Origin: Natronococcus sp. CG52
GTDB taxonomy: Archaea > Halobacteriota > Halobacteria > Halobacteriales > Natrialbaceae
DNA: 64,000 nt
Direction of reading: 5' to 3'
Assembly (NCBI RefSeq): GCF_023913515.1
Contig: NZ_CP099391.1
Coordinates: forward strand, 434,001-498,000
The position numbers were made by a program, and so were the translations under genes. Positions 54,725-55,860 of this stretch are shown piece after piece (the stretch's first letter is position 1; each line of letters starts with the position of its first letter). The notes beneath the pieces are model-generated. The model ran no database searches. It was not told where the DNA came from and saw only the letters and a list, made by a program, of their open reading frames with translations.

Positions 54725-54879
54725 CTAGTAGTCACTGAACGTCAGTGCACACCCGATCGGCGTCACCTCGAGGCCGACGCCACCGACCTCGCCCACGACG
54801 GGAGCGCGGTTCGGAGTCCGACGGGCGAGAACCGCGGGCTGTGCGATCGGTGTGGAACCCGTTTCAGTTGGTACTATAG
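54725..54879 (+). repeat. Palindromic repeat family, copy B
   Basis: A 155-base copy of the element, with left arm CTAGTAGTCACTGAACGTCAGTGCAC and CCCGATCGG, and right arm GTGCGATCGGTGTGGAAC...TTTCAGTTGGTACTATAG. It has about 40 extra bases in the middle compared with copy A. Its right arm provides the last codons and the stop of the winged-helix gene (54864-55460, minus). Confidence 0.82.
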
Positions 54880-55460
54880 CGCGTGTCAGCGGCGTTCGCC
54901 AGGAGGAACGCGGTAATGATGAGTCCGCCAAGGGCCACGCCGGGCAACGAGACCAGTTCCAGTGCCCCGACAATCAGCAAGAGACCGCTCAGTCCGGCCG
55001 CCGCAATGTACCAATCGGCGCCACCGCCTTCATCGGAGTCCGCGGAGTCAGGGGTCGGTCGAGCACTGCTGTCGTCCTCAGTTATCGACTCGAGATACGG
55101 GCGGAAGATCTCCAGACGATCGGTCGGCCGGACGAGTCCGCGGGACTTCTCGTACTCGATGACACCGCACTCGTCGAGTTTGGGGAGGTGCGATTGATAC
55201 AGTGGAATATAGACTCGTTGATATTGATTGCGGGGTATCTCCGTAGTGGCAGTCTCACACTCGGCCGCTGCGACGTACTCGACGAGCTCGGTCATTCGAA
55301 CGGGGCCCTCCGTCCGCAGCAGATATCGGATCGTCTCGCGTCGGCGGCGCGTCTGCAGGAGGTGAAAACGTTCGCTCTCCGAGAGGGCCTGCGTCTCGGA
55401 TTGGGAATCGGAAGGGGCAGTGTTCGAACCCTGGGACCGACGTTCCGTTGTGAGTACCAT
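54864..55460 (-). CDS. Winged-helix (DUF7344-like) membrane-anchored regulator
   Basis: 198 aa. An N-terminal disordered part precedes a winged-helix domain: LSESERFHLLQTRRRRETIRYLLRTEGPVRMTELVEYVA and YIPLYQSHLPKLDECGVIEYEKSRGLVRPTDR, with two C-terminal TM segments (WYIAAAGLSGLLLIVGALEL and LPGVALGGLIITAFLLANAA). Haloarchaeal DUF7344-type proteins look like this. The final residues ADTRYSTN and the stop come from the palindromic repeat (copy B), so the original C-terminus was altered. No target is known. Confidence 0.82.
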   Translation of the reverse strand: MVLTTERRSQGSNTAPSDSQSETQALSESERFHLLQTRRRRETIRYLLRTEGPVRMTELVEYVAAAECETATTEIPRNQYQRVYIPLYQSHLPKLDECGVIEYEKSRGLVRPTDRLEIFRPYLESITEDDSSARPTPDSADSDEGGGADWYIAAAGLSGLLLIVGALELVSLPGVALGGLIITAFLLANAADTRYSTN

Positions 55461-55606
55461 TGGTGAGTAGCGGCAGGTTCCTCTGGTCTACCAGTCCCGA
55501 TACTATGAGATAACTTCTGTTATAAATTTAGAGTAACAACACTACAGATTAGCACCACCTACTGGAGGGGGACGGGGCCGATTTCTACAGGCGGAGCAGG
55601 CCGAGT

Positions 55607-55740
55607 GCCTCGGGGTCGTTCGGAAGACCTTCGGTCTTCCGTGAGTGAGCAAACGCTTCGCGTTTGCGATCTATGCAAGACCTCTGGTCTTGCAGTATGA
55701 CGAGAGAGCGACGCTCTCTCGAACCACTTGACCCCGAGGC
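55607..55740 (+). ncRNA. Nested four-hairpin structured element (putative RNA or palindromic DNA element)
   Basis: A long stem (GCCTCGGGGTC at 55607-55617 with GACCCCGAGGC at 55730-55740) encloses four consecutive perfect hairpins. Each has an 8-9 bp stem and a 3-base loop: 55621-55641 (arms CGGAAGACC/GGTCTTCCG), 55649-55667 (GCAAACGC/GCGTTTGC), 55674-55694 (TGCAAGACC/GGTCTTGCA) and 55701-55721 (CGAGAGAGC/GCTCTCTCG). No coding frame is likely. It could be a structured RNA or a transposable palindromic element; I cannot tell which. It stands between the winged-helix gene and the potassium channel gene. Confidence 0.6.
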
Positions 55741-55860
55741 GGTTCACGTAACGGGTGTTCCAGGAGTAGTCCCGAAACGGGAAATCCGCACTCCAAACGC
55801 CGCTGGTAGTAGCACGACACAACTCCCGTTCGATGCCCGCAGTTGCTCGAGCGCGACCGT

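Follow-up and report, generated by a model that had tools for sequence, protein, structure and literature searches.

A hairpin-built, SMR-A-like repeat probably nested within a PATE-type remnant of an IS605-type element in Natronococcus sp. CG52

The closest described counterparts of the locus reported here are SMR-A, the small mobile repeats of Haloquadratum walsbyi (HqIRS42, 43, and 55), which, according to PMC3119063, are approximately 110 bp long, have prominent terminal inverted repeats, produce no target duplication, and insert in the near-terminal palindromes of IS605-type transposons and of PATEs (palindrome-associated transposable elements). PATEs, in turn, include terminal-only forms of 52 bp (PMC3119063). 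It has been proposed that the SMR-A repeats serve to inactivate IS605-type elements; how they themselves are mobilised was called enigmatic in 2011 (Dyall-Smith et al., PMC3119063). Other short hairpin elements include REPINs, i.e., hairpin doublets that are proposed to be moved by RAYTs (PMC3116915), and GTAG REP families, many of which have stems of 5–13 bp and loops of 2–3 nt (PMC3733652 on GTAG and CGTC REPs, in the accessible text of which the string 'halo' was not found).

The window, i.e., the whole stretch of DNA that was analysed, comprises 64,000 nucleotides of contig NZ_CP099391.1 of Natronococcus sp. CG52 (positions 434,001 to 498,000), and coordinates below refer to it. The element is flanked by the 3' end of a TrkA-N ion channel gene on one side and by the 5' end of a DUF7344 gene on the other; the two genes are encoded on the minus strand. 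We consider it probable that a hairpin-built, SMR-A-like mobile DNA element (55616–55726) occupies the palindrome tip of a PATE (55589–55747) that derives from an IS605-type element and carries neither tnpA nor tnpB. The features are as follows:

55584–55588, plus strand: TCTAC pentanucleotide directly left of the outer element, a presumed target or TAM-like site
55589–55747, plus strand: outer element, a PATE-like, IS605-type terminal-only remnant that ends in GGTTCAC
55607–55617 and 55730–55740: outer stem of 11 bp (GCCTCGGGGTC/GACCCCGAGGC), which encloses four hairpins
55607–55615, plus strand: left arm of the host palindrome, GCCTCGGGG, pairing with 55732–55740
55616–55726, plus strand: inner mobile element (SMR-A-like), 111 bp, TCGTT...AACCA, inserted at G^C
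55621–55641, plus strand: hairpin 1, 9 bp, perfect, CGGAAGACC-TTC-GGTCTTCCG, part of the basic two-hairpin form
55649–55667, plus strand: hairpin 2, 8 bp, perfect, GCAAACGC-TTC-GCGTTTGC, core module
55674–55694, plus strand: hairpin 3, 9 bp, perfect, TGCAAGACC-TCT-GGTCTTGCA, core module
55701–55721, plus strand: hairpin 4, 9 bp, perfect, CGAGAGAGC-GAC-GCTCTCTCG
55732–55740, plus strand: right arm of the host palindrome, CCCCGAGGC, pairing with 55607–55615

A preliminary description of this DNA had reported an 11-bp outer stem around four perfect hairpins of 8–9 bp with 3-nt loops, had judged the fold unlikely by chance, and had seen no convincing coding frame. Coordinates and pairing bear out the first point, and the second holds for either strand with RNA or DNA parameters (z about -10 to -11): the RNA minimum free energy is -80.8 kcal/mol on the plus strand and -82.0 kcal/mol on the minus strand (z of approximately -10; 0 of 200 shuffles as low), and DNA parameters give -49.7 and -48.9 (z of -11.1 and -10.3). 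As to the third, the element is overlapped by two ORFs (87 and 89 aa), which are not taken as genes because the element is a dispersed repeat. In the innermost two of the 11 outer-stem pairs, the TC with which the inner element begins pairs with loop bases of the host (GA), and the host palindrome proper (GCCTCGGGG/CCCCGAGGC) comprises 9 bp.

Without its insert, the outer element measures 48 bp (55589–55615 plus 55727–55747). TCTAC is conserved at the left edge of PATE copies from unrelated loci, and several matches consist of the two outer ends directly joined (TCTAC-AGGCGGAGCAGGCCGAGTGCCTCGGGG-CTTGACCCCGAGGCGGTTCAC); PATE copies with no hairpin insert include L037, L039, L046, and others. 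In L032, these outer ends delimit a complete IS605-type element (tnpA, PF01797 Y1_Tnp, 4.7e-39; tnpB, PF07282, 1.9e-17), and the outer part is therefore interpreted as a terminal-only, PATE-type remnant; the ends also surround tnpA and tnpB in L031. In its fused IS605-type ends, single near-terminal palindrome, and length (48 bp plus TCTAC, too small for a coding sequence), the outer element resembles the PATEs of PMC3119063, whereas it differs from them in being interrupted by the inner element and in its host genus. The outer stems of 24 composites comprise 216 cells, of which 179 hold Watson-Crick pairs and 15 G-T. In L035 (reverse complement, approximately 2133), a 48-bp PATE follows TCTAC and lies in frame within a PQQ-type gene (DGVY-RRSRPSASGLDPEGVH-AVAFGG), with no duplication in the filled site, as read from the filled copy alone. 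The heptanucleotide GTAACGG just right of the PATE end (55748–55754) is common to the window copy and its 95% copy L002, the other flanks of which differ; this may be chance or an effect of a TnpB guide or of excision.

Empty and filled palindromes, when compared, show that the inner unit is TCGTT...AACCA and that it is placed between a G and a C at the tip of the outer element's palindrome. PATE copies occur both with and without the insert, and the block 55615–55727 (GTCGTT...AACCAC) also occurs without PATE ends (L004, L007, L013, L014, L016, and L024), i.e., the inner element is found independently in several hosts. Its ends are inverted repeats (GTCGTTCG... / ...CGAACCAC) with one mismatch, and the two end hairpins share their arm sequences. 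When the context of L097 is joined without the insert, it matches L231, L232, L234, and L238 across the junction with neither duplication nor loss; no such empty site was found for the window copy, the left flank of which has no relative in the eight other Natronococcus genomes. After strands and overlaps were merged, 258 rows yielded 135 parsed elements, among which most four-hairpin blocks span 102–122 bp. All 89 clean copies have G|C flanks, which holds by construction, and most have CG at positions -5/-4 (C in 69/89, G in 76/89). In 25 of the 135 parsed elements, the insert directly follows a ..CTCGGG-type arm, and the remaining 110 lie in other contexts; for example, a two-hairpin copy in L127 lies within tnpB and keeps the frame (CHSCG-RSKDRERSFVMTRDASRLSNH-YQVNADYNAS).

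Some recurrent hosts are themselves structured. The context of L097, L059, L238, and L241, CTTTTACGCTG^C[GTGCGGTCGC-TTC-GCGACCGCAC]TCGG, is a hairpin repeat, and the loop between GTGCGGTCGC and GCGACCGCAC is TTC in L097 and GAA in L238. Another host (L083, L074, L096, and L122) looks like a long hairpin that receives inserts near its tip (arms in L083, GAAAGGGGCTGG... / ...CCAGGGGCTTTC).

The inner element thus fits the description of SMR-A, to which it is likened by that description and not by sequence: the unit is of 111 bp vs. approximately 110 bp, terminal inverted repeats are present (one mismatch), there is no target duplication (as seen from the relative's empty sites, L231, L232, L234, and L238), and insertion occurs in near-terminal palindromes of PATE/IS605 elements (25/135 parsed). 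Plasmid PL47 gave no match to R1, the covariance model of the inner element. Unlike SMR-A as published, the inner element follows a hairpin-array plan, with inversion of loops and core and with forms of two, three, or six hairpins; the word 'hairpin' was not found in the accessible text of PMC3119063 on SMR-A.

Among the 135 parsed elements, the number of hairpins is mostly four, the others having two, three, or six. The two-hairpin form is hairpin 1-TGATGA-hairpin 4, and the core (hairpins 2 and 3) goes between the two TGA. The core is found in both orientations in relatives: with loose pattern sets, the 87 four-hairpin elements comprise 12 of the form CTGA-hp-GAGGTCC-hp-TTGA, 15 of its reverse complement TCAA-hp-GGACCTC-hp-TCAG, 7 of the window type, 18 and 9 of two further types, and 26 others. 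In L086 and L094 (and, decayed, in L116), a further hairpin or pair of hairpins is lodged within the loop of hairpin 2, and nesting is thus recursive. L054 (1759–1925) contains an element with six hairpins, and L105 (1501–1704) two elements in tandem.

The preliminary description had proposed a covariation search, which does reveal covarying homologues. For 19 blocks, the covariation score is 0.410 vs. 0.180 in shuffled controls (0 of 500 shuffles as high), and slid versions of the structure score at most 0.178; 93.3% of 645 cells pair (vs. 79.2% shuffled), and changes on both sides of a pair that conserve the structure occupy 101 cells (vs. 34.7). Further pair types are not above the control in these blocks (33 vs. 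35.9). In 4029 pairs read on the element's strand, there are 27 G-T, 16 A-C, and 26 other mismatches, rates that are biased low since the element finder demands good end hairpins; the excess of G-T over A-C points weakly in the direction expected of RNA.

The loops are equally characteristic. A C-G pair closes 407 of 413 three-base loops, and 137 of these 407 are GNA and 144 TNC; in the rest of the window (the element's own four left out), 16 C-G-closed triloop stems of at least 6 bp include one GNA and no TNC. The C-GNA-G triloop (the GNA rule) belongs to the 'extraordinarily stable' DNA mini-hairpins exemplified by d(GCGAAGC). Such mini-hairpins are described in PMC10527192. Approximately two thirds of the hairpins can therefore form C-GNA-G on one strand or the other; the GNA and TNC loops are balanced, and no strand is preferred. 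Loops also invert. For example, copy L003 has AGA in hairpin 3 and GTC in hairpin 4, where the window has TCT and GAC. Among the 65 loops compared in 20 disjoint nearest pairs, 32 are unchanged, 10 are replaced by their exact reverse complement, and 11, 4, and 8 differ by one, two, and three bases, respectively, whereas 157 of 162 linker triplets are the same with no inversion among the 5 changed, and 36 of 1777 non-loop positions differ. Redrawing loops from the pool gives an inversion rate of 0.13, i.e., approximately 5 of the 33 changed loops vs. the 10 observed; these comparisons come from subsets of the 135 parsed elements, the loops counted are partly dependent on one another, and inversion by chance is made more frequent by the common TTC/GAA loops.

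Template switching in replication is known to leave inverted loops between perfect arms, and a single such event can also change both sides of a stem (PMC8794818). Covariation alone is therefore no proof of RNA (PMC8794818), and finding that a DNA process can explain covariation resembling that of an RNA family is a warning. Taken together, the covarying arms, loop flips, invertible cores, nesting, and strand-balanced loops speak for maintenance as folded DNA rather than for selection on a single RNA. Both elements may pass through single-stranded, folded DNA, and template switching at the hairpins, in replication or mobilisation, might keep the arms perfect while flipping the loops.

Copies are widely dispersed. 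A similarity search gave 16 matches in the CG52 genome, and all 9 of the 9 genomes of Natronococcus had matches; R1 gave 47 rows on both strands of the CG52 genome, equivalent to approximately 20 distinct places among the matches listed. At E<=1e-5, R1 matched 120 of 146 sampled genomes of the order and 50 of 57 genera, in a scan that scored at most 25 candidates per genome and in which copy numbers saturate. In a phylum sample at E<=1e-7, 31 of 196 genomes matched, all within the order except G284 (L224 and L225), which has an array of short-loop triloop hairpins of different sequence; the same may hold for part of the R1 matches in the order, which could be arrays of another kind. The element or its ends matched 34 plasmid records, and the phage records gave no match to the element. 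Five genome-contig stretches carried the exact pattern; one of them, in a Deinococcota MAG (L049), was rejected as a chance match devoid of the hairpin array.

Three copies in the CG52 genome combine PATE and block and are surrounded by unrelated sequence (95.4% over 174 bp and 89% over 164 bp). It therefore seems that the composite is moved or converted in one piece; on the strength of these copies, PATE and insert would be able to move together, and gene conversion could be responsible instead. The repeated composite and the open tnpB frame beside a filled palindrome in L103 speak against the idea that the inner repeats inactivate IS605-type elements. PF01797 (Y1_Tnp) found no match in this genome (5 of 14 control genomes match), and neither element thus has a known mover there. 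Among the examined sites of TCTCGAACCAC, of which the genome has 24, there was no longer element with the same right end and hence no autonomous partner; of the 14 sites that are not obviously known copies, 2 (L212 and L214) are two-hairpin elements and 12 have no such hairpin. Haloquadratum, in which nearly all tnpA copies are disrupted, presents a similar puzzle (Dyall-Smith et al., PMC3119063).

It is conceivable, though we regard it as speculative, that the inner elements form a distinct mobile class built of DNA triloop hairpins only, which would enter the single-stranded tips or linkers of folded elements, their own kind included, by means of a non-Y1 enzyme, with loops flipped in the process. 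We think it unlikely that they are REPIN-like and mobilised by a Y1 transposase of the RAYT type that works on pairs of hairpins. The basic form, two hairpins with conserved tails and no target duplication, is indeed a short mobile hairpin doublet such as those that RAYTs are proposed to move (PMC3116915); however, its tags are different, the genome gave no Y1_Tnp match despite approximately 20 distinct copies among the matches listed, and no transposase with the inner element's ends was seen.

Slightly less likely still is a structured non-coding RNA, in which copies 3' of tnpB would be the terminal part of the omega RNA, whereas solo copies such as that in the window would supply TnpB with guide or decoy RNAs in trans. 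The omega RNA of TnpB has a 3' hairpin. In L249, from the CG52 genome, a 407-aa tnpB frame is followed by the same host palindrome, empty, and in L103, a closely similar tnpB locus from elsewhere with a 467-aa open frame, the palindrome is filled with a four-hairpin block. The likeness to the omega RNA hairpin is one of position, just 3' of tnpB. The strong covariation, the nine TnpB domains over the Pfam cut-off in this genome, and the 27:16 ratio of G-T to A-C mismatches are further points in favour of RNA. However, the window copy has no adjoining tnpB, the inner block also occurs in other hosts and within a coding frame, and the loops flip and are strand-balanced. At the gathering threshold, Rfam found only a tRNA in the window and nothing at the element, and at a relaxed threshold only a sub-threshold SAM match beside it. 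An RNA role is possible for copies 3' of tnpB (L103 and L031), where the hairpin lies where the omega RNA would end. Two nested mobile DNA repeats are thus more likely than an RNA gene; of the alternatives in the preliminary description, 'multi-way junction RNA or compound palindromic DNA', the DNA part is supported, given the many copies, two nested mobile repeats, and empty sites, and the RNA part is not supported for the window copy, given the absence of an Rfam match, the strand-balanced loops, and the loop inversions. That these are immobile intergenic palindromes (terminator or supercoiling sites) which have spread through duplication is very improbable, since the empty sites are precise, the hosts are several and unrelated, and some insertions lie in coding frames, even though some pairs do lie within longer duplications (L017/L023, 92.7% over 1720 bp; L154/L155, 94% over 719 bp).

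The nested mobile repeats favoured here are therefore of a known kind (SMR-A and PATE). As far as the literature was searched, no description was found of a hairpin-array anatomy with flipping loops and cores, which appears to be new, as do the covarying arms, recursive nesting, and GNA/TNC loops balanced between strands. Because the exact unit, the G^C target, order-wide copies, and loop inversions are now in hand, SMR-A-type movement has become testable. Finally, a second dispersed repeat (around GTCAGTGCACACCCGATCG) is present in the window at 54726–54759 and 54794–54880, and it also adjoins the PATE copy in L002 (1713–1838).
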